Shown: positions 3,131-40,175 of the stretch, piece after piece
How the letters are laid out: every line of letters starts with the position of its first letter
Position numbering within the stretch: position 1 is the first letter of the stretch
NCBI RefSeq assembly: GCF_003149025.1
Contig: NZ_QGDV01000001.1
Location: forward strand, 124,001-188,000
From: Rathayibacter iranicus NCPPB 2253 = VKM Ac-1602
GTDB taxonomy: Bacteria; Actinomycetota; Actinomycetes; Actinomycetales; Microbacteriaceae
DNA: 64,000 bases
Reading direction: 5' to 3'
Position numbers and translations under genes: made by a program
The notes under the pieces: model-generated
Told to the model about the DNA's origin: nothing
The model's database searches: none
What the model saw: only the letters and a program-made list of their open reading frames with translations

Positions 3131-4579
3131 TTAGGGGACGCTGCAGGCCGGCTCTGTGGCGCCCTGGGCCGACGGCGTCGAGACGGCCGGTCCGTTCACC
3201 CCGGCGTCCGGCTCGGGCACGCTGATCCGTGTCGCTTCGGAGTCATCTCCTCCGCCGATCGCCGCAAGAACCGTTCGGTGTATGAGTTCCGTGTCCGGCC
3301 GCTCCGGCAGCGTCAACGGTTCGCCGAGCTCGACGCGGACGAAGGGATGGGTGCGTGCCGAGTTCGCGAGCCGGGCCAGAGCGGGAAGGGCGCTGGTCGG
3401 GAGGCTCGTCGCGACGTTCTCGGATCCGGAGCGCGCGAGGGCGGTGAAGCGGGTGAGGATGGTCAGCGGATCGACCTGGCGAAAGAGGGCGGCTTGGAGA
3501 CAAGCCTGGCGTTCGGAGCGGTCGGCGTCGGATGTGTTCACTCGGGAGCGGGCGTACCACAGCGCCTGGGAGCCGTCGAGGTGCTGCAGACCGGTAGGGA
3601 TCGGCGGCCCATACTCGACCGGCCGTCCGCTACCGTCGTCGGGCACTCCCGCCTGGAGCACCGGCCTGGTGTTCACGACCGAGACCCCGCCCAGCGCATC
3701 GACGAGGTCGATGAATCCGGTCATCCGGATCGAGACCGTGGCCGAGATAGGCAGACCTGCGTACCCCTCTACTGCATCGCGCATGGCGGCGGCGCCGGGA
3801 TCCGGGTCGCCCGGGTACAGCTCAGGATGAGTCGCTCCGTACTGATAGAGATGGTTCACTCCGCAACCGGCCATACACCGGGTGCCCTCCGGCAGTGCGC
3901 GGGCCAGAGCGGAGCCCTCGGGATAGAGATAGTTCGACGCCGTCCGCGGGATGCCGAAGAGGACGCTCCGACCGGTGACGGCATCGACGCTGACGAGGGT
4001 CAGCGAGTCGGGCAAGAGCACCTGGTCGCGGTTCGGATCGGCGTCGAGCCCCATCACCAGAATGTTGTAGCGCCCATCGACGGGCGTGATGCCGCGGCCG
4101 GAGGCGAAGACCGAGGTGAGCAGATCGTGCTGCGCGACGGCGGCGGTTACCCACCACGTCGTCGCGCCCAGGGGCAGAGCCGCCGCGACCACGGTGACAA
4201 GGGCGAGCGCCGCTCGAGCCCGCCGTCGCGGACGCACGAGGAACGCCGCAGTGACAGGGCCCGAGAGCCAAAAGAGACCGAGACCCGCACCGAGCGTGCC
4301 TGCGACGGCGACAGCCATCGGATCGGTGGCGAGTCGCACGAGGAGGGACGGATCGGACGCGATCATCCCACACAGGACGAGTATCCCGACGCTCGCGGTC
4401 GCGGCGACTCCCAGACGCACAGCAGCGGCTCGACGCGCACCGAGGAGGCGGTGTCCGAGCCCCGGGATGAGCAGCGATCCGGCGACTGCGGCGAGGACCT
4501 TTCTCGTGCTCACCGGATCAGATATGGGGACGGGCGGGCGAGGAGATCTGCTCCCCGACCCGCCCGTCCCGTCACTCAT
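3131..4579 (-). CDS. LytR-CpsA-Psr (LCP) family wall-polymer ligase with multi-pass N-terminus
   Basis: A 482-residue protein. LCP enzymes move teichoic-acid-like or polysaccharide polymers from lipid carriers to peptidoglycan on the outer face of the membrane. The N-terminal 150 residues contain four hydrophobic segments, more than the single anchor of most LCP proteins. The catalytic domain starts near residue 168 with YNILVMGLDAD and includes the pyrophosphate-binding arginines in FGIPRTAS and LWYARSRVNTSDADRSERQ. The start is the ATG at 4579, only 11 nt after the stop of the surface-protein gene, so the two are probably one transcript. This suggests related roles at the cell envelope. Confidence 0.88.
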   Translation of the reverse strand: MSDGTGGSGSRSPRPPVPISDPVSTRKVLAAVAGSLLIPGLGHRLLGARRAAAVRLGVAATASVGILVLCGMIASDPSLLVRLATDPMAVAVAGTLGAGLGLFWLSGPVTAAFLVRPRRRARAALALVTVVAAALPLGATTWWVTAAVAQHDLLTSVFASGRGITPVDGRYNILVMGLDADPNRDQVLLPDSLTLVSVDAVTGRSVLFGIPRTASNYLYPEGSALARALPEGTRCMAGCGVNHLYQYGATHPELYPGDPDPGAAAMRDAVEGYAGLPISATVSIRMTGFIDLVDALGGVSVVNTRPVLQAGVPDDGSGRPVEYGPPIPTGLQHLDGSQALWYARSRVNTSDADRSERQACLQAALFRQVDPLTILTRFTALARSGSENVATSLPTSALPALARLANSARTHPFVRVELGEPLTLPERPDTELIHRTVLAAIGGGDDSEATRISVPEPDAGVNGPAVSTPSAQGATEPACSVP

Positions 4580-5580: not shown

Positions 5581-6235
5581 GTGGTGCTTCTTTCGGAAGT
5601 GTCGAGGCCCCCTCACGGCGAGTGGTGCTCGGATATTTTGGCGCAGATTTTCTTCGCCATGCGTCCGTGACGTTTTCTGCGAGTCCTCCTTCGTCGAGAA
5701 GATCGCGTCCATCGCATGCCTCCCGCAGATCGGGCGTCAATGTGGTATGGACGACCGGCGCCGATTCAGCGGGAGTTGCTGCGGGAGCTGACGCCGTCTC
5801 CGCTTGCGCCATTGAGGGTCGCGAGCGCGAGGACCCGGCCGGAGGAATCCATCACGAAGCGCGGCCACCTTGACGGAGTCGATCCAGTTACGGCAAAGCT
5901 GGCGCACAACGTCGGATCCTGACCGGGCGTAGCGCCAGGTCTCGAGATCCCGCAGTCTCGGAGCCGACGGCTCGTCCTCGACCTGCCCCACGTCGAGGAG
6001 GTCCGATCGCGGCCGACCATGGCCTTTCCGCGCGATCGCGTGCCGATCACTGGTCGGTTCGTGACGGCCCGAACTCTGGCGCGCCCTGCCTACCCCTGTC
6101 GGGGGATACCGCATCCCACTCCTTCTCCTCAGCCGCCCTCACGCCCAGGGCGAACAGGCCTCCGCAGCGGGCTCAACGCTGGCTACAGTCGACGTATCGG
6201 AGCCCACCCCTGCGGGTTCTGTAGGGAGTGACAGC
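5581..6235. other. 655-nt gap between divergent surface-protein and clpC genes
   Basis: It should hold the promoters of both divergent genes. Apart from the surface-protein remnant described separately, I see no intact gene. Open frames here have poor codon statistics and no ribosome-binding sites. The right end supplies the clpC leader; TGTAGGGAGTGACAGC stands directly before its ATG. Confidence 0.6.
5806..5872 (-). pseudogene. Remnant of a second surface-protein copy (C-terminal fragment)
   Basis: Read leftward, this stretch encodes RFVMDSSGRVLALATLNG, which lines up with RVALMDSYGRILTSATLDG in the neighbouring LAETG surface protein. The order and strand are the same. Homology fades on both sides and there is no start, stalk or sorting signal, so only a scrap of a former tandem paralogue seems to remain. 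The match is short, so chance similarity cannot be excluded. Confidence 0.45.
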
Positions 6236-8746
6236 ATGTTCGAGAGATTCACCGATCGCGCGCGGCGCGTCGTCGTCCTGGCCCAGGAAGAGGCCAAGAT
6301 GCTCAATCACAACTACATCGGCACGGAGCACATCCTGCTCGGGCTGATCCATGAGGGCGAGGGAGTTGCCGCCAAGGCGCTCGAATCCCTCGGCATTTCG
6401 CTCGACGCAGTGCGCGAGCAGGTGCAGGACATCATCGGCCAGGGGCAGCAGCAGCCGACCGGCCACATCCCCTTCACGCCTCGAGCGAAGAAGGTCCTCG
6501 AGCTGTCCCTGCGCGAAGCGCTGCAGCTCGGTCACAACTACATCGGGACCGAGCACATCCTGCTCGGCCTCATCCGCGAGGGCGAGGGTGTCGCGGCCCA
6601 GGTGCTGGTCAAGCTCGGCGCCGACCTGAACCGCGTGCGTCAGCAGGTCATCCAGCTGCTCTCCGGCTACCAGGGCAAGGAGCAGGTCGCCGTGGGCGGT
6701 GAGCAGCAGCAGCCTCAGGGAGGTTCGCAGATCCTCGACCAGTTCGGACGCAACCTCACACAGGCGGCGCGCGACAACAAGCTCGACCCGGTCATCGGGC
6801 GCGAGAAGGAGATCGAGCGGGTCATGCAGATCCTCTCCCGCCGCTCCAAGAACAACCCTGTCCTGATCGGTGAGCCCGGCGTCGGCAAGACCGCCGTTGT
6901 CGAAGGACTCGCACAGGCGATCGTGCGCGGAGACGTGCCCGAGACGCTCAAGGATAAGCAGCTCTACACGCTTGACCTCGGCTCGCTCATCGCCGGCTCC
7001 CGCTATCGCGGAGATTTCGAGGAGCGCCTGAAGAAGGTCACGAAGGAGATCCGCACCCGCGGCGACATCATCACCTTCATCGACGAGATCCACACCCTCG
7101 TCGGCGCAGGGGCCGCAGAAGGTGCGATCGACGCCGCGTCGATCCTCAAGCCGCTGCTTGCCCGCGGCGAGCTGCAGACCATTGGCGCGACCACGCTCGA
7201 TGAGTACCGCAAGCACTTCGAAAAGGACGCCGCTCTTGAGCGCCGCTTCCAGCCGATCCAGGTCGCGGAGCCGTCGCTGCCCCACACGATCAACATCCTT
7301 AAGGGACTGCGCGACCGCTACGAGGCGCACCACAAGGTGTCCATCACCGACGGCGCGATCGTCTCGGCGGCCAACCTGGCCGACCGTTATATCAGCGACC
7401 GTTTCCTGCCGGACAAGGCGATCGACCTGATCGATGAGGCTGGCGCACGCCTGCGTCTCTCGATCCTTTCGGCGCCGCCGGAGCTACGCGACTTCGACGA
7501 TCGCATCGCCGTCGTCCGCGCGGCCAAGGAGGCCGCAATCGAAGATCAGGACTTCGAGAAGGCCGCTTCACTCCGCGATGAGGAGAAGCAGCTGCTCGGT
7601 GAGCGCCTGCGCCTCGAAAAGCAGTGGAAGTCCGGCGATGTCAAGGCCACCGGGGTGGTCGATGAAGGTCTGATCGCCGAAGTCCTCGCCCAGGCGACGG
7701 GCATCCCGGTCTTCAAACTGACCGAAGAGGAGTCTTCGCGGCTCGTCTTCATGGAGAAGGCTCTGCACCAGCGGGTTATCGGTCAGGAGGAGGCTATCGC
7801 GGCCCTCTCGCGGACCATCCGCCGCACTCGTGCCGGCCTTAAGGACCCCAAACGCCCCTCCGGGTCGTTCATCTTCGCTGGCCCGACTGGTGTCGGAAAG
7901 ACCGAGCTCGCCAAGGCTCTCGCCGAGTTCCTCTTCGACGACGAAAACGCGATGATCTCGCTTGATATGTCGGAGTACGGGGAGAAGCACACGGTCTCGC
8001 GGCTGTTCGGCGCCCCTCCCGGGTTCGTCGGCTTCGAGGAGGGTGGCCAGCTCACCGAGAAGGTGCGGCGCAAGCCGTTCAGCGTGGTCCTTTTTGATGA
8101 GATCGAGAAGGCGCACCCGGACATCTTCAATTCGCTCTTGCAGATCCTGGAGGAAGGTCGACTGACCGACGGCCAGGGCCGTGTCGTCGACTTCAAGAAC
8201 ACCGTCATCATCATGACCACCAACCTCGGTGCTCGTGACATCGCCGGCGGTCCCGTCGGGTTCCAGATCGAGGGCGACACTGCGACCGGCTACGACCGCA
8301 TGCGCGGCAAGGTCAACGAGGAGCTGAAGAAGCACTTCAAGCCTGAATTCCTCAACCGCGTGGACGATGTCATCGTCTTCCCGCAGCTGTCGAAGCCCGA
8401 GCTGCTGCAGATTGTCGACCTGTTCATTAAGCGCCTGAGCGATCGTTTGCTCGACCGTGACATGACTGTCGAGTTGACGCAGTCGGCCAAGGAGCGGCTG
8501 ATCGAGGTCGGGTTCGACCCGGCTCTCGGCGCTCGCCCTCTTCGTCGCGCGATCCAGCGCGAGATCGAGGACCAGCTGTCCGAGCGGATCCTGCACGGGG
8601 AACTCGGCGCAGGCGACCACGTTCATGTGGACTTTGTGGACAACGGCTTCGTGTTCACCACAACGCCGCGGCTGATCTCGATCAGTGCCGGTGCGTCTTC
8701 CGGAGCGGCCACCGCCGGCCCGGCGACGCCCGACCTGATGGCGTAG
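6236..8746 (+). CDS. clpC: ClpC, AAA+ unfoldase of the Clp protease
   Basis: An 836-residue Hsp100 ATPase that unfolds proteins and feeds them to ClpP. Two N-terminal repeats share [13 protein letters not shown] (near residues 24 and 99). The first AAA+ module has Walker A GEPGVGKT and Walker [14 protein letters not shown]-like coiled segment follows ([17 protein letters not shown], near 436), which marks ClpC rather than ClpB. The second module has [12 protein letters not shown] and [13 protein letters not shown], and ends with the C-terminal D2-small domain [21 protein letters not shown]. Length and order are normal for ClpC. GGGAG lies about 8 nt before the ATG. A hairpin terminator follows at 8763-8792. 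In Actinobacteria it is usually essential. Confidence 0.97.
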
Positions 8747-8921: not shown

Positions 8922-9431
8922 GTGGCTGATTGGAAGTACCCAGTGCGCCGGGCGCGCACGAGCGATGTCCCGTTCATCCAGCAGCTGAGTGAGCCGCTTG
9001 TGAACGAGCGCGTCCTCCTCGGCAAGGACCGCGTCGTGCTCTACGGCGCCGTTCAGGAGTTCCGGATCGCGGAGGACGGTGACGGCACCGCCATCGGCTG
9101 CGGCGCGCTGCACGTGATGTGGGACGACATCGCGGAGGTGCGCACACTCGCGGTCGCGAAGGACTGGCTTGGCAGGGGCGTCGGCCATCACATCCTGGAG
9201 CGCCTCGAGAATGACGCCCGTGAACTCGGCCTCACGCGGCTGTTTTGCCTCACCTTCGAGGTCGACTTTTTCGCTCGGCACGGCTTCGAGCCGATCGGCG
9301 AAAAGGTTGTCGATCCTGAGGTGTACGCCGAGCTGCTGCGCTCGCCCGACGAGGGCGTCGCCGAGTTCCTCGACCTCGCCCGGGTCAAGCCGAACACTCT
9401 CGGCAATACCCGCATGCTCAAGACGCTCTGA
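8922..9431 (+). CDS. argA: Amino-acid N-acetyltransferase (GNAT-type N-acetylglutamate synthase)
   Basis: A 169-residue single-domain acetyltransferase of the Mycobacterium Rv2747 type, which makes N-acetylglutamate from glutamate (or glutamine) and acetyl-CoA for arginine synthesis. The GNAT core shows VRTLAVAKDWLGRGVGHHIL near residues 66-85, whose R/Q-x-x-G-x-G/A loop binds acetyl-CoA. The C-terminal DFFARHGFEPIGEKV and LARVKPNTLGNTRMLKTL are characteristic of this subfamily. The start is a GTG that fits a leaderless promoter. It is not next to other arg genes, as usual for this ArgA type. Confidence 0.85.
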   Translation: MADWKYPVRRARTSDVPFIQQLSEPLVNERVLLGKDRVVLYGAVQEFRIAEDGDGTAIGCGALHVMWDDIAEVRTLAVAKDWLGRGVGHHILERLENDARELGLTRLFCLTFEVDFFARHGFEPIGEKVVDPEVYAELLRSPDEGVAEFLDLARVKPNTLGNTRMLKTL

Positions 9432-9457: not shown

Positions 9458-10075
9458 GTGACTCCGCCGCCCCGCCGCTTACCCTCTCGGGTCTACCGGC
9501 GACGCCGGGCCGCGGTCCTGCTCGCGCTGGTCGTGATCGTCGCCGGCCTCGCGATCGTCCTCTCGCTGCAGCCCTGGGCAGGCGCCCCCGATGCGCAGCC
9601 GAGCCCCACTCCGACGACCTCGCTGCCCACGCTGTACCCCTCGACCTCCCCCGAAGCGACGCCCGGTGCGGCCCCCGCGTGCACGGCCGACTCCGTCGCC
9701 GTGACGGCCGTCACTGACGCATCGAGTTACGCGCCCGGTGCAGAACCGCAGCTTTCACTCTCGTTGACCAACACGTCCAGCGCCGACTGCCTGATCGACG
9801 CTGGCACGAGCAAGCAGGTCTTTACCATCACCAGCGGGTCGGAGCAGATCTGGACCTCGACCGACTGCCAGACCGGCGCCACCGACCTCCCGATGCTGCT
9901 CCAGGCCGGCCGCTCGGTGACGGGCAGCGCGCTGACCTGGGACCGCACTCGCTCCTCCGCGGAGACGTGCTCGGGCGGGCGCGAAGCGGTCGGGGCGGGA
10001 GGTGCCGCCTACAATCTGTCGGTGTCGGTCGCGGGGATTCCCTCGGCCTCGCCGACCCAATTCCTGCTTCAGTAG
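9458..10075 (+). CDS. Single-pass membrane or secreted protein, uncharacterised actinobacterial type
   Basis: A 205-residue protein from a GTG start. A basic N-terminus (RRLPSRVYRRRRAA) leads into one membrane helix at about residues 17-37, then a Pro/Ser/Thr-rich linker and an extracellular domain of about 140 residues. The domain carries four cysteines (CTADS, CLIDA, CQTGA, CSGGR) that could form two disulfides. The beta-rich pattern with SSADCLIDAG resembles proteins found throughout Microbacteriaceae without assigned function. No enzyme motif is visible. It follows argA by 26 nt but seems to have its own promoter. Confidence 0.8.
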   Translation: MTPPPRRLPSRVYRRRRAAVLLALVVIVAGLAIVLSLQPWAGAPDAQPSPTPTTSLPTLYPSTSPEATPGAAPACTADSVAVTAVTDASSYAPGAEPQLSLSLTNTSSADCLIDAGTSKQVFTITSGSEQIWTSTDCQTGATDLPMLLQAGRSVTGSALTWDRTRSSAETCSGGREAVGAGGAAYNLSVSVAGIPSASPTQFLLQ

Positions 10076-10396: not shown

Positions 10397-11782
10397 TCAC
10401 CCTGCGGGGACGCGCTCAGGTCGGACGCTTTCGGCCCGGATGCGCTCGGGCACGGGAACGAGCGCGTGGGTGATGGCACTCGAGAGCGTGAAGGCGCTCG
10501 AGTCGAGGTGGGAGGGGTGGCCGAGCCGTGTCGCCTCGCCGGCGCGCTGCTTCGCGCCCGAGGCTGGGCGGATGTCGCCGGAGAGGCTGATCTCGCCGAA
10601 GGCCGCGATCCCCGGGCGCAGCGGTGTATAGGCGTGAGCGGAGGCGATGGCGACCGCGATGGCGAGGTCGGCCGCCGGCTCCATCAGCTTGACCCCGCCC
10701 ACCGTTGAGACATACACGTCGCAGCGGCGTAGCGGGAGGCCCGCCTGCCGTTCGAGGACCGCCAGGATCATTGCTACGCGGGAGGGATCGACGCCGTTCG
10801 TCACTCGACGAGGATGTTCGCCGTCGTTCGCGATCACCAGTGCCTGGATCTCAACGGGCAGCGCGCGACGCCCCTCCATCGCGACAGTGACGCAGATCCC
10901 GGGCGTCGGGAAACGGGTTCGGCTGAGGAAGAGGCCGCTCGGGTCGGGAATTTCGGCGATGCCCTCGGCGGTCATCTCGAAGCAACCGACCTCGTCCGTT
11001 GGGCCGAAGCGGTTCTTGAGCGAGCGTACGAAACGAAGGGCAGTCTGACGGTCGCCCTCGAAATGACAGACAACGTCGACCAAGTGCTCGAGCAGGCGTG
11101 GGCCGGCGATCGAACCGTCCTTCGTCACGTGTCCCACGAGCACGAGGGGGAGCGCCCGCTCTTTGCAGACCCTGATGAGAGTCGCCGCCACTTCGCGCAC
11201 CTGGCTCGGGCCGCCCGGGAGGCCGTCAATGGTGCTGCTCGCGACGGTCTGCACCGAGTCGACGATGAGGAGGTCCGGTCGGACATCGTCGATATGGCCG
11301 AGAACGGTGCCGAGGTCGGTCTCGGCCGCAAGGAAGAGGCTTTCGTGCATGGCACCCGTGCGCTCGGCCCGCATCCGCACCTGCGCGGCCGACTCCTCCG
11401 CACTGACGTAGAGAACCCGCTGGCCCTTGGCCGCAGCCCGGCTCGCCACCTCGAGCAGGAGTGTCGACTTGCCCACCCCCGGCTCTCCGGAGAGCAGGAC
11501 GACCGCGCCGGCGACGATGCCTCCTCCAAGAACCCGGTCGAGTTCGCCTACGCCGGTGGGACGGTGGGCGGCTGACGTCGTCTCGATCTGCGTGATCGGC
11601 CGAGCGACCCGACCGGCGGCGGGAGCGACGGCCGTCACCGCGCGCACGAGGCTGGTGCGCTCAGTGCTCTCGACTACGGAGCCCCACTGCTGGCACTCGC
11701 CGCAGCGGCCGACCCACTTCGCGGTCGTCCAGCCACATTCTGAGCAGCGGTATGCGGCGGTGCGTGTCTTCGAGGAGGCCAT
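10397..11782 (-). CDS. radA: DNA repair protein RadA
   Basis: A 461-residue ATPase that helps process branched recombination intermediates together with RecA. An N-terminal C4 zinc finger (CSECGWTTAKWVGRCGEC) is followed by a RecA-like core with Walker A GEPGVGKST near residue 101 and Walker B LLIVDSVQT. The RadA-specific KNRFG motif appears in SLKNRFGPTDEVG. The C-terminal Lon-like domain (PLRRCDVYVSTVGGVKLMEP) is complete. Length is normal. The start is the ATG at 11782; the 280 nt upstream separate it from the divergent hydrolase gene. Confidence 0.95.
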   Translation of the reverse strand: MASSKTRTAAYRCSECGWTTAKWVGRCGECQQWGSVVESTERTSLVRAVTAVAPAAGRVARPITQIETTSAAHRPTGVGELDRVLGGGIVAGAVVLLSGEPGVGKSTLLLEVASRAAAKGQRVLYVSAEESAAQVRMRAERTGAMHESLFLAAETDLGTVLGHIDDVRPDLLIVDSVQTVASSTIDGLPGGPSQVREVAATLIRVCKERALPLVLVGHVTKDGSIAGPRLLEHLVDVVCHFEGDRQTALRFVRSLKNRFGPTDEVGCFEMTAEGIAEIPDPSGLFLSRTRFPTPGICVTVAMEGRRALPVEIQALVIANDGEHPRRVTNGVDPSRVAMILAVLERQAGLPLRRCDVYVSTVGGVKLMEPAADLAIAVAIASAHAYTPLRPGIAAFGEISLSGDIRPASGAKQRAGEATRLGHPSHLDSSAFTLSSAITHALVPVPERIRAESVRPERVPAG

Positions 11783-12061
11783 GAGGTCCTTTCGGGGCGG
11801 GGAAGCAGACGAGCGCGACGCTACGGGGGACCCCCGACAATGTCGTTTCGTCGGGCGTCGCGTCGACGGCCGTCGTTGCGTCGGCTACGGCTGCGTCGGA
11901 CGCCGCTTTATCGAACGTGTATTCGACACTACCTTCGACCACCGACGCGGGAGCCGGGCCACGCCACTCCTGGGGACACACCGGCAGAAAACGCGCTGTG
12001 GAGGACGCTCTCGCTCCAGCGCTGCCCAGCCAGCGTCGGAGGTCTGCGCGAGACTGAGGGC

Positions 12062-32548: not shown

Positions 32549-32662
32549 GGGTCATACCTTTCCGGGAAAGGAGGCGCTCCGTCGTCCCTGTCACGCGCGC
32601 TCCGTGCCGTCGCCAGGTGTGCATCCAACCCATCGTGGGCGCGCCGTCAGCGGCGAGGTTAC

Positions 32663-33253
32663 TCAGTCGACCGATCGCGAGGAGTCGAGCTCTCGAATTC
32701 GGTTGACAGCCCTGCGCAAGCTGTCGCTCCTCCCCACGGCGAGAGCGGGCCGCCACACCGTCGATGCGAAGTCGTTGATCCGCGAGACGAAGAGGGGGCC
32801 GATTGCGCCGCCGGACGCGGTGACATCCCGTCGGATCGCTGCAGATCGTGAATCGGCACACAGTGCGAGCAGTGTCCTTGTGGCATGAGGAAGGGCCTCG
32901 GGATCGACGGGCACACGTGCACGTGACACGGCGAAGTACGAGGAGAACGCCTCAGCGTCCGCGAGAAGCCATGCCTCGGACATCGTGTGTGCGACACGGA
33001 GAGAAAATGACGCGTTCCACCGTGAGATCTGTGCCCCCAGCTCCGCCCGCAGTGACACTGGGCACCGTGAGTCGGAGTCGCGAAAGACTACCCAGGGTGT
33101 CTGCGCCGACGCGTTGTTGTATTTGGGGATGAGGGGATCGAGACGCGTCTTCCCTCCCGCGACACGGACCTTATTCACGGACTTCCCCGCCTCCCGTGCG
33201 ACGGCCGAAGCCATCTCTCGATCTGATTCACCCTCCACAGCGATATTGATCAC
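32663..33253 (-). CDS. TOPRIM-like (OLD-type) nuclease partner of an ATPase
   Basis: A 196-residue protein beginning at a GTG that overlaps the ATPase stop by 4 nt (GTGA), so translation is coupled. It opens with INIAVEGESDREMASAVARE, the beta-strand and catalytic glutamate of a TOPRIM fold, and WVVFRDSDSRCP near residue 55 supplies the D-x-D pair. The segment AHTMSEAWLLADAEAFSSYF near 88 resembles that seen in DUF4276/OLD-like TOPRIM proteins encoded next to ATPases. Such pairs (PARIS AriA/AriB, RloA/RloB-like, Gabija-like) act in phage defence. I cannot assign it to one named family; it is shorter than AriB. Confidence 0.72.
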   Translation of the reverse strand: MINIAVEGESDREMASAVAREAGKSVNKVRVAGGKTRLDPLIPKYNNASAQTPWVVFRDSDSRCPVSLRAELGAQISRWNASFSLRVAHTMSEAWLLADAEAFSSYFAVSRARVPVDPEALPHATRTLLALCADSRSAAIRRDVTASGGAIGPLFVSRINDFASTVWRPALAVGRSDSLRRAVNRIRELDSSRSVD

Positions 33254-34413
33254 TTCCGCTTCTTTCCTTGGGCGGTGATCAGGCCTGTGAGATCCTGCGG
33301 CGCGATCAATCCATCGACGATGTCAGACATCGGAAGCTCAGCGTCCAGCTCTCCCGAGACTTCGGTGATTTCCGATATCAGGTGCGCGACCGTGCCGTCT
33401 TCGGTGACTCTCAGCACGAGCACCTCCTCAGCCCGGATTCCCTCGTCATCGAGCAGCTCTGGGGCGTGTGTCGAAAGGACCACCTGGAGATTTCGATCTC
33501 TCTGGGTGGCAGCGAGAACGGTTGGCAGCGTGCGGACGATCGCGGAGTTGAGGGACAGTTCCGGTTCTTCGAGCAGCAGGACTCCGCCGTTTGATGGAGC
33601 ACTAATCAAAGTCCAGAGCAACCCGATCAGTCGGAGCGTCCCGTCGGAGAAGTCGGCCTCGCTCTGACGCGCGGGCGTCTCCCGCCAATTCTTATAACCG
33701 GCGATGAGGTGCGGTCGCCCCGCCGAGTCAACCTCCAACTTGAGGGATTGGAACTCGGGCACTGCGGATTGCAAAGCTGTTTCCATCCGACGGAGCCACG
33801 CGTTCTTCGTCGCCGTGGGCACGGCATTCATCTGTGCAATGAAGTCGGCCCCATATGGATCACCGGCAAGGGCCCCTATCCGCGCGGGATCACGGATGAT
33901 CTGAGGTACGAGATGAAAGTACTGCGTCTTGGCGAAGTAATCGGCGAGCACCCGGAACTGCTGATTCGCAGCTATCTGCTCTAGGTGCGTCTGTGTGAGA
34001 CGAACGCTGTCTGTCGCGTCCTCGCGATCGGGACGTTGCAGAAGAACTATCCCGTTCTTCTCTACTCGCTCTTGATCGACAATCGGGCGGTTCAGCCCGC
34101 CCTTCTCGCCGCGGATCGACAAGACGTATCGCCATTCGTCCTCGCCATCGCTCAGCCGGAGGTCGATAATGAGCCGACCGCCCTGGTTGTTTCGCGCGAA
34201 GAGGCTACGAACTTTGCTGATGCCGCCGCGGCGTTCTATCGCCGACGTCAAGCCTCCACCTGCCCCAGCGATGTCGCCGAGGAACCGAAAGAGGTCGAGT
34301 AGATTGGACTTGCCTGACGCATTGGGCCCGACGACGAAGAGGCGATTGTCAAGCGGAAAGTCCAAGGTCTTGAAATTCCGCCAATTGCTCGCCGTCACGT
34401 GAGTGATCCGCAC
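33250..34413 (-). CDS. SMC/RecF-like AAA ATPase of a putative defence module
   Basis: A 387-residue ABC-type ATPase of the AAA_21 class. The start is the GTG at 34413 with GAGGAG 6 nt upstream. The N-terminus ITHVTASNWRNFKTLDFPL leads to Walker A VVGPNASGKSNLLD near residue 28-41. The signature region is FSDGTLRLIGLLWTL near 255, Walker B LLLEEPELSLN near 276-286 and the switch His in VVLSTHAPELLDDE near 305-318. No long coiled coil is present, so it is a compact OLD-type ATPase without the C-terminal TOPRIM domain, which the next gene supplies. GC is lower than in neighbouring genes, a hint of transfer. Confidence 0.8.
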   Translation of the reverse strand: MRITHVTASNWRNFKTLDFPLDNRLFVVGPNASGKSNLLDLFRFLGDIAGAGGGLTSAIERRGGISKVRSLFARNNQGGRLIIDLRLSDGEDEWRYVLSIRGEKGGLNRPIVDQERVEKNGIVLLQRPDREDATDSVRLTQTHLEQIAANQQFRVLADYFAKTQYFHLVPQIIRDPARIGALAGDPYGADFIAQMNAVPTATKNAWLRRMETALQSAVPEFQSLKLEVDSAGRPHLIAGYKNWRETPARQSEADFSDGTLRLIGLLWTLISAPSNGGVLLLEEPELSLNSAIVRTLPTVLAATQRDRNLQVVLSTHAPELLDDEGIRAEEVLVLRVTEDGTVAHLISEITEVSGELDAELPMSDIVDGLIAPQDLTGLITAQGKKRK

Positions 34414-34544
34414 GGTGAACTCCTCCTCGGATCGATAAGTGCTCCTCAGCCTACGGGCACTCCTCTGGCGAAGCGGTTGCTGAACTGATCAAGGCCGCGC
34501 CCACGTCCGTCGACCTGTTCGGCGGTCGGTCAAAGCGTCTCTGT

Positions 34545-38882: not shown

Positions 38883-40175
38883 TTAGCCAGAAACAGTCTC
38901 GTCGATATTCTCCGAAGGGCAAACGCCCGGAAGGAGGCAGAGGAAATTGGTGCCTGTGCCTTGGTAGAGTGTCTTCCAAGACTCACTTCCGTCACTATTC
39001 GAGAACCGCGCGTAAGCCTCGTGAGATGGAACTGGCTGACGGGAACCCTGAATTGACACAGAGCCACTTCGATAGATTTTTACCCAGGTCAAAGAGTACC
39101 GGATAGCACCAGCGAGACAGAAAGGGTCTCCAACTTCGTGAGAAACACCGAACGTCACGAGATCGCCGGAGCGCGTCGGATTTTGAAACACCATGCCCGC
39201 ATCCGAAGCTGTGCGAGTCTCGATAACGTCACCTTTGGAGTTCAACTTCCGCGTCGGCCCTACACTCTTCACATAGGCGAGATCGTATGGCTCAGTATTA
39301 TCCCAATTTACATTGAAGAACATTTGTGTCCGGTAGGATGACGTTTCATATGGAGCCCCTGCGCCCGGGCCAATGAAGTCGCGGTTATCTCCCTTGAACG
39401 ACTCGCCGTCCCCAAGCCCGCATCCGACCTTTGCTTCAAAATTGCTCACCGTGGCGTCCGGGATGAATGTTTTATAATCGTATGCTGTCGTGCTCGGCTG
39501 GTATCTGAGCGGATAAACTATCTGATCGCTGTGATTGGTGTCGGCGCTAAGTGCACTGACGGTCATTGCTCGGCTCGCAACGTTCCCCTGAGCGTCCGCT
39601 TTCCCTTCGAGGACATAGTCGTAAGAATCCCCAGGCTTCAACCCGGTATCTGTGAAGCGACCGTTCGACGAAGTTCCGCGAATGTCTCCGTCTCGGAGAA
39701 CGCTGTACTCTCCGCCTGGCGGCGTGTCCCAGTCGAAGCTAGCAGAGTCCGAGGTAATTGCTGACGCAAACTCTGGCGCCGCTTCCAATGGCGTATGACG
39801 ATCAACTGCATCGCCAAAATTACCTGATGTGAAAACATTGCCATTGATGGTCGTGACTTCGGGCTTCGGAATTGACGCCGTATTATTGCTAGCATTGCTA
39901 GCATCCATGGATGGCGCATACTGCACCGTGACAAGTGCATCCTGATCATTTACATGGACAATCTGAATGGTCTCCCCCTCGTCCGATTTACCCACGACCG
40001 TCTCTTTAGCTAAACTGGATGCATCGGCGACGCTAGCTCCTGTGGCTTCGAGTTCGACTACTAAACTAGCGTCTTTTGTCTCGCTCGCAAAAGCAAGCGA
40101 CGGAATGTACGCCCCTGAGATGCATAGCGGTAATGTAATTGCCGTAACCACCCGTAGTCGATTTATGCGCTTCAT
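38883..40175 (-). CDS. Secreted protein with FnIII-like domain, low GC
   Basis: A 430-residue exported protein. GGAAGG precedes the ATG at 40175; MKRINRLRVVTAITLPLCIS begins a signal peptide cut near ASETK. Residues 130-205 look like a fibronectin type III domain (FDWDTPPGGEYSVLRDGDIR, then GRFTDTGLKPGDSYDYVLEG). The C-terminal 200 residues are beta-rich with aromatic patches (YRTQMFFNVNWDNTEPYDLA) and two paired cysteines in GVCPSE and FLCLLPG, plus GCGLGDG and FCLAG. No enzyme motif or anchor is seen. GC of about 50 percent against about 70 percent around it points to horizontal origin. It is upstream of the four-helix protein. Confidence 0.75.
   Translation of the reverse strand: MKRINRLRVVTAITLPLCISGAYIPSLAFASETKDASLVVELEATGASVADASSLAKETVVGKSDEGETIQIVHVNDQDALVTVQYAPSMDASNASNNTASIPKPEVTTINGNVFTSGNFGDAVDRHTPLEAAPEFASAITSDSASFDWDTPPGGEYSVLRDGDIRGTSSNGRFTDTGLKPGDSYDYVLEGKADAQGNVASRAMTVSALSADTNHSDQIVYPLRYQPSTTAYDYKTFIPDATVSNFEAKVGCGLGDGESFKGDNRDFIGPGAGAPYETSSYRTQMFFNVNWDNTEPYDLAYVKSVGPTRKLNSKGDVIETRTASDAGMVFQNPTRSGDLVTFGVSHEVGDPFCLAGAIRYSLTWVKIYRSGSVSIQGSRQPVPSHEAYARFSNSDGSESWKTLYQGTGTNFLCLLPGVCPSENIDETVSG

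Follow-up and report, generated by a model that had tools for sequence, protein, structure and literature searches.

An ATPase–TOPRIM gene pair of Rathayibacter iranicus as a member, by its protein models, of the candidate anti-phage family HEC-01

The window examined here is a stretch of 64,000 nucleotides (nt) from Rathayibacter iranicus NCPPB 2253 = VKM Ac-1602 (contig NZ_QGDV01000001.1, positions 124,001 to 188,000), in which two adjacent minus-strand genes encode an OLD/SMC-type ABC ATPase and a small TOPRIM protein. As judged by profile models of both proteins, the pair is an intact member of the catalogued candidate family HEC-01, and we consider it likely to be a two-gene anti-phage system (probably acting by abortive infection) that entered between two convergent host genes by horizontal transfer. 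Immune systems in which an ATPase is split from a TOPRIM protein recur, and HEC-01 is a catalogued instance for which no description of a mechanism was found in the accessible literature. A first-pass annotation, made from the sequence alone, had reported both open reading frames (ORFs), their GTGA overlap and the motifs GPNASGKSN, LLLEEPE, LSTHAPE, VEGESD and FRDSD, all of which were found in place. The locus comprises the following features, with conservation given for 57 aligned pairs:

33250 to 34413, minus strand: HEC-01A-like OLD/SMC-type ABC ATPase of 387 amino acids, with a GTG start and GAGGAGG upstream
32663 to 33253, minus strand: HEC-01B-like TOPRIM protein of 196 amino acids, with a GTG start
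33250 to 33253, minus strand: stop/start overlap GTGA of 4 bases, suggesting translational coupling
34303 to 34329, minus strand: ATPase Walker A motif GPNASGKSN (residues 29–37), with G29, N31, A32 and G34–N37 invariant
33559 to 33579, minus strand: ATPase Walker B motif and following residues, LLLEEPE (residues 279–285), with E282, E283, P284 and E285 invariant
33466 to 33468, minus strand: ATPase switch histidine H316, conserved in at least 90%
33233 to 33235, minus strand: TOPRIM glutamate E7, invariant
33071 to 33079, minus strand: TOPRIM DxD motif, with D59 and D61 invariant
32549 to 34500, no strand: DNA inserted relative to the same-genus genome G014, with an approximate right edge (from the comparison with locus L108)

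The ATPase matched the PADLOC model HEC-01A (PDLC04180) over residues 1–378 (model positions 1–378 of 382; E-value of 1.9e-166), and the adjacent same-strand TOPRIM protein matched HEC-01B (PDLC04197) over residues 2–189 (model positions 3–189 of 192; E-value of 1.2e-71). The next-best PADLOC models for the ATPase were a second HEC-01A model (2.4e-43) and then AriA (PDLC02980; 1.4e-34). With both proteins matching near full length, the initial view that the pair lies outside the named families did not hold. Whether both genes thereby match one described system, an outcome that this annotation had named as refuting its view, depends on the wording: they do by the HEC-01 models, and they do not if "described" means experimentally shown. 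In Pfam, the ATPase matched AAA_21 (2.8e-35) and, more weakly, AAA_15, while DUF4276 was sub-threshold for the TOPRIM protein (15.9 bits vs. a cut-off of 30.2); neither protein exceeded a curated cut-off in NCBIfam. Sequence searches of PHROGs and the PDB returned ATPase-type or N-terminal matches alone for the ATPase, and nothing useful for the TOPRIM protein. Structure models predicted TOPRIM and ABC-ATPase folds with the catalytic motifs intact.

HEC stands for Hma-embedded candidate, i.e., genes located between Hma genes (excerpts of PMC12111858). This location guided the discovery of the HECs and is no part of the protein models used here for filing; the window copy differs in that it stands alone, since none of its 10 scanned neighbors matched a PADLOC protein at 1e-5. 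The HEC sentence in the same excerpts mentions confirmed phage resistance with the HECs unspecified, and phages are given for HEC-04. The accessible sections of PMC12988326 present activity for several HECs, HEC-06 among them, and the accessible part of PMC12724379 names HEC-01 in a list of systems, by name alone.

Several known systems resemble the pair, and PARIS, Gabija and Septu could be set apart by composition, as had been proposed at the outset (no AriB/DUF4435, no UvrD-like helicase and no HNH/PtuB). With PARIS, the pair appears to share the TOPRIM effector fold in the structure predictions. However, profile searches at E 1 matched the TOPRIM protein to neither AriB nor DUF4435, and its 196 amino acids contrast with ca. 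305 in the matched PARIS chains, while the AriA match of the ATPase was far weaker than that to HEC-01A, with bit scores in the range of the generic AAA_21 match. The predicted TOPRIM fold was closer to class-2 OLD than to PARIS by ca. 1 Z unit (i.e., nearly tied), and AriA and GajA were absent among the best 50 ATPase fold matches listed, which does not thereby exclude unlisted families. In Gabija GajA and class-2 OLD proteins, ATPase and TOPRIM are fused, whereas the OLD-type ATPase is here split from its small TOPRIM partner in two separate ORFs with intact motifs, as first noted from the letters; moreover, a UvrD-like helicase (GajB) was found in none of the 10 neighbors scanned. Septu was rejected on a partner protein devoid of HNH or PtuB matches at E 1, and retron and RloB readings were set aside by profile search. 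RloA/RloB and AbiL (AbiLi/AbiLii) differ in that the TOPRIM protein here is devoid of AbiLii or RloB matches at E 1; the AbiLi model does match the ATPase (8.3e-21). HEC-04/IbfA combines the same two domains, with phage activity reported for HEC-04 (excerpts of PMC12111858), but as one fused protein vs. two genes here, a distinction of gene layout and not of sequence comparison.

The pairing itself is widely conserved. The ATPase search yielded 80 loci out of 378 relatives (Actinomycetota, Bacteroidota, Cyanobacteriota, Planctomycetota, archaea and others), and a TOPRIM match followed the ATPase in 76 of these 80 (phmmer) with both genes apparently intact in 70 (69 of the retained set plus L058), so that the pair is not a chance arrangement. 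The identical –4 overlap recurred in 33 of 69 relatives. Besides the residues given above, the ATPase signature S256–G258 and the D-loop residues S287–N289 were invariant across the aligned pairs, and the ATPase was more conserved than the TOPRIM protein (e.g., 81/64, 80/61 and 73/52% ATPase/TOPRIM identity to the window copy).

The conserved order, the coupling, the intact motifs and folds akin to those of PARIS, Gabija and OLD suggest an ATPase sensor controlling a TOPRIM effector. The ATPase, as a dimer or higher oligomer, would keep the small TOPRIM nuclease inactive and would read an infection cue, upon which the triggered TOPRIM protein may cleave nucleic acid through E7, D59 and D61 with the help of metal ions. 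The substrate may be tRNA (the target of PARIS AriB) or DNA (that of OLD/GajA), and its cleavage would stop the infected cell. For AriB, tRNA cutting and a proposed two-metal mechanism are given in the accessible part of PMC12409363.

The TOPRIM gene was broken or missing in 8 of the 80 loci (L007, L011, L015, L016, L020, L022, L025 and L033); it was short in L065, while the ATPase was split in L027 and, besides the TOPRIM loss, lay in two ORFs in L025. An open ATPase next to a broken or missing TOPRIM gene was seen in 7 of 80 loci and the reverse in 1 of 80, a ratio biased by the use of the ATPase as query. Together with the coupling of the genes and their resemblance to restriction–modification (RM) units as minimal mobile units (treated alongside toxin–antitoxin systems in the excerpts of PMC3874152), this asymmetry could fit a toxin–antitoxin-like selfish pair, with TOPRIM as the toxin, the ATPase as its restraint, and phage defense secondary or absent. 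This reading is rather unlikely: the ATPase is large, highly conserved (more so than the TOPRIM protein) and unlike a simple antitoxin, and the kin HEC-04 (PMC12111858) and PARIS (PMC12409363) are reported as anti-phage in the portions available.

Two of these loss patterns may be noted in their own right. In Actinomyces and relatives (L007, L015, L016 and L025) the TOPRIM gene is missing or decayed, with the ATPase open in L007, L015 and L016, and in L011 two ORFs occupy the place of TOPRIM after the ATPase (L011:7751–9396), which by eye resemble an AbiEi/AbiEii-type pair.

The pair appears to have reached its present place horizontally, in keeping with the mobile cassette originally suggested from its lower GC content, which was confirmed (0.597 for the ATPase and 0.631 for the TOPRIM gene vs. 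0.695 and 0.642 in the 5 kb on either side). Of the 15 genomes of the genus, 14 have the left-flank epimerase gene and 3 have the ATPase. In G014 (L108), the epimerase stop codon lies 5 bases from the stop codon of the next, convergent gene, and therefore the window has ca. 2 kb more at this place, holding just the gene pair. A comparison of this site across 13 loci showed other DNA of ca. 4 kb between the flanks in 10 and none in L108, while no right-flank match was seen in L109 and L114. Moreover, a 91% identical ATPase resides at a different genomic place in G007 (a flank gene of which was not found in the 4 relatives searched), and G009 has a divergent ATPase type (45%) with a TOPRIM gene of its own. 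The ATPase is rare further afield, being found in 3 of 299 genomes of the family (1e-60), in 1 of 394 genomes of the class (1e-100; namely the window's own) and in 3 of 366 Microbacterium genomes (1e-100). The flanking genes encode an NAD-epimerase/PRISE-like protein, an aldo-keto reductase, an FMN oxidoreductase and a permease on the left, and a DUF7882 protein, MarR, TetR and AlkA on the right.

Direct repeats around other copies point to a defined mobile unit. Scanning 400 nt of flank revealed exact repeats of at least 16 nt in 6 of 26 Actinomycetota copies, vs. none at 1560 shifted control positions. The repeats, with the distance from repeat to repeat taken as the unit, are:

L002 (Microbacterium thalli): exact repeats of 105 nt at 9821–9925 and 11751–11855; unit of 1930 bases
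L159: exact repeats of 51 nt at 4322–4372 and 6191–6241; unit of 1869 bases
L028: exact repeats of 37 nt; unit of 1939 bases
L010: exact repeats of 32 nt; unit of 2359 bases
L110 (G007): exact repeats of 22 nt at 9203–9224 and 11084–11105; unit of 1881 bases
L017: exact repeats of 16 nt; unit of 1900 bases

In the five units of 1.87–1.94 kb, the exact repeat starts 1–52 nt from the TOPRIM stop codon, and when mismatches were allowed the repeats extended to ca. 58 (L028), 71 (L010) and 60 (L017) columns. Because the repeat sequences differ between copies, they are target-derived. Specifically, the L159 repeat consists of the 3′-terminal 49 nt of a tRNA-Leu gene from position 34 (anticodon) plus 2 nt, and the L002 repeat corresponds to the 3′-terminal part of a DUF1697 gene. 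A survey scoring two candidates per genome matched the L002 repeat stretch in 70 of 295 genomes, twice in the carrier and once in each of the 69 other Microbacterium genomes, and in 6 of 19 fetched relatives (L135, L136, L138, L150, L152 and L153) the site is empty and uninterrupted, with one repeat copy; no empty sites for L028, L010, L110, L017 and L159 were found among the loci already fetched. In some other Actinomycetota copies, the pair thus appears to form a minimal mobile unit of ca. 1.9 kb, bracketed by target-derived direct repeats of 16–105 nt and too small to have room for a recombinase gene. No literature report of repeats around HEC-01 was found, in searches not aimed exactly at that point.

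Some of the repeat data temper this picture. No repeats of at least 16 nt occurred in 49 copies from outside the Actinomycetota (controls: 12 of 2820 at 16 nt or more, 3 at 18 nt or more), and an earlier round of the scan had found repeats in 5 of 72 copies, with 5 of 2223 control positions reaching 16–17 nt (four in L077 and one in the Actinomyces locus L008) and none at least 18 nt, so that the L017 repeat, at 16 nt, carries little weight by itself. With mismatch scoring, the copies scored 105 (L002), 43.7 (L028), 37.6 (L017) and 22 (L110), and controls reached up to 69 (repeat-rich L077), 29.6 (L030) and 21.7 (an Actinomyces locus), making L110 and L017 the weaker cases. L157 and L158 gave no convincing repeat. 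The repeat scans found no flanking repeat for the window copy either, a picture that would also be expected if the insertion were older and its repeat had decayed.

The 1.9-kb unit could have been moved by an integrase acting in trans, or by insertion with a long target duplication as for RM units. Insertion with long, variable target duplication is described for RM units in the accessible parts of PMC3874152 and PMC3031569, the former placing the duplications "in the order of 100 bp". The likeness lies in a nuclease gene unit between long, variable, target-derived repeats; the pair differs in having no methylase, and the repeat-flanked units here are ATPase–TOPRIM pairs of Actinomycetota. The features of such insertion were found in part, i.e., as repeats in the 6 of 26 copies, a single-copy empty site for L002 alone and no repeat at the window copy. 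Alternatively, and with a probability that we put somewhat short of even, the repeats might be att-like sites for an integrase in trans or mark remnants of larger, CIME-like integrase islands, with no self-movement of the 1.9-kb unit. Tyrosine-integrase att sites typically run from the tRNA anticodon region to beyond the 3′ end, much like the L159 repeat. Five of the repeats coincide with the 3′ end of a gene, and that of L010 is close to such an end as judged by eye. Against this, five of the six units share a size of 1.87–1.94 kb and a close TOPRIM-to-repeat spacing; furthermore, differing repeat sequences would call for a separate integrase each, and remnants for independent trimming down to the same two genes. 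RM-type insertion is favored because the units are compact, similar in size and at unrelated targets, and att-like sites are favored by the tRNA-Leu case of L159; we regard the two readings as about equal overall. A bolder idea, to which we give very little credence, is that the pair is a self-moving element whose ATP-gated TOPRIM protein would make offset cuts at gene 3′ ends, leaving the 16–105-nt duplications; if true, a two-gene unit of 1.9 kb, devoid of transposase and integrase, would use one enzyme for both defense and movement. No shared motif was seen by eye at the printed unit ends, and no program search for terminal inverted repeats was made. The repeats offer a handle on how small defense cassettes can move when they carry no recombinase, which has also been asked of RM units.

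Together with these repeats, the placement of the pair in Phycisphaerae deserves specialist attention. Within the order to which G310, a Phycisphaerales bacterium, belongs, the gene was found in 8 of 148 genomes at 1e-80, and all 8 carriers have a CTP_transf_3 (kdsB-like) gene upstream and the CTP synthase gene pyrG downstream. With L063 and L074 added, this same-strand arrangement spans 10 planctomycete genomes (L029, L032, L048, L063, L066, L074, L079, L128, L131 and L132), the kdsB-like gene being directly adjacent in 8. In the class of G310, the gene occurred in 5 of 198 genomes, and neither kdsB nor pyrG was seen in the fetched stretch of the four carriers besides G310 (L123–L126). Constant metabolic neighbors, which the first-pass annotation had named as evidence against defense, were thus encountered in one Phycisphaerae order and were no general feature of the 63 compared loci. 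In this lineage the pair may be domesticated or tied to CTP metabolism.

The kdsB–pyrG flanks belong to a set of observations that weigh against a simple mobile anti-phage system. The ATPase tree (57 of 80-odd sequences, chosen by similarity to the window copy and computed by a quick method) follows the phyla, with 11 phylum changes where the minimum possible is 10, and shared flanks within four Actinomyces loci and within five cyanobacterial loci suggest vertical inheritance in these groups. No match was found at 1e-40 among 72,556 plasmid records, where 1e-5 gave three distant Streptomyces ATPases (ca. 25% identity), or at 1e-20 among 50,697 phage records; a search of IMG/VR for close relatives gave 4 contigs. 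In the literature, as far as the partially accessible sources extend, no report of an activity test of HEC-01 itself was found. No clear defense island was apparent from the neighbor scan either. The families listed near the pair (214 genes) included DpdF, JetA, JetB, SoFic, a type III methylase, PDC-S01, PDC-S03 and PsyrT, with 1–3 proteins each, and those listed for far genes (88) included PD-T4-6, PDC-S05, PDC-S17, mad6 and dCTPase; no enrichment is claimed, because the first 25 families were listed per set and distinct proteins were not counted. This survey is only indicative, since the codon-based gene caller was rough (recovering 51 ATPase and 40 TOPRIM genes in 62 loci of known coordinates); the neighborhood of the window copy, too, is without PADLOC matches.

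The planctomycete flanks, the phylum-like tree and the lack of close plasmid or phage relatives at these thresholds could also speak for a housekeeping or regulatory function of this nuclease/ATPase pair (e.g., in nucleotide stress or DNA repair) instead of phage defense. We find this improbable, given the very patchy distribution at the genus, family, class and Microbacterium levels, the four of five carriers in G310's class with neither kdsB nor pyrG in view, the insertions with matching empty sites (G014/L108 and L002) and the TOPRIM decay in 8 of 80 loci. An anti-phage role for the HEC-01 pair stays the explanation that we prefer.

Finally, some minor observations were made. Elsewhere in the window, positions 38883–40175 encode a 430-amino-acid protein, secreted-looking by eye, in an unusually low-GC stretch (0.53–0.57) and without a match in Pfam at 1e-5. 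The window's own genome carries a second ATPase, of 30% identity (L082; G000:C3:71569–72594), with no HEC-01B-like partner detected by phmmer within the fetched stretch. In L053 (1351–12568), a helix-turn-helix gene together with a HEC-01 ATPase occurs twice, ca. 9.7 kb apart, perhaps reflecting a large tandem duplication. In the cyanobacterial loci L041, L043, L061 and L071, a gene for a Uma2-family putative endonuclease lies directly upstream of the pair (assigned via Pfam for L041, L061 and L071, and via tblastn for L043).
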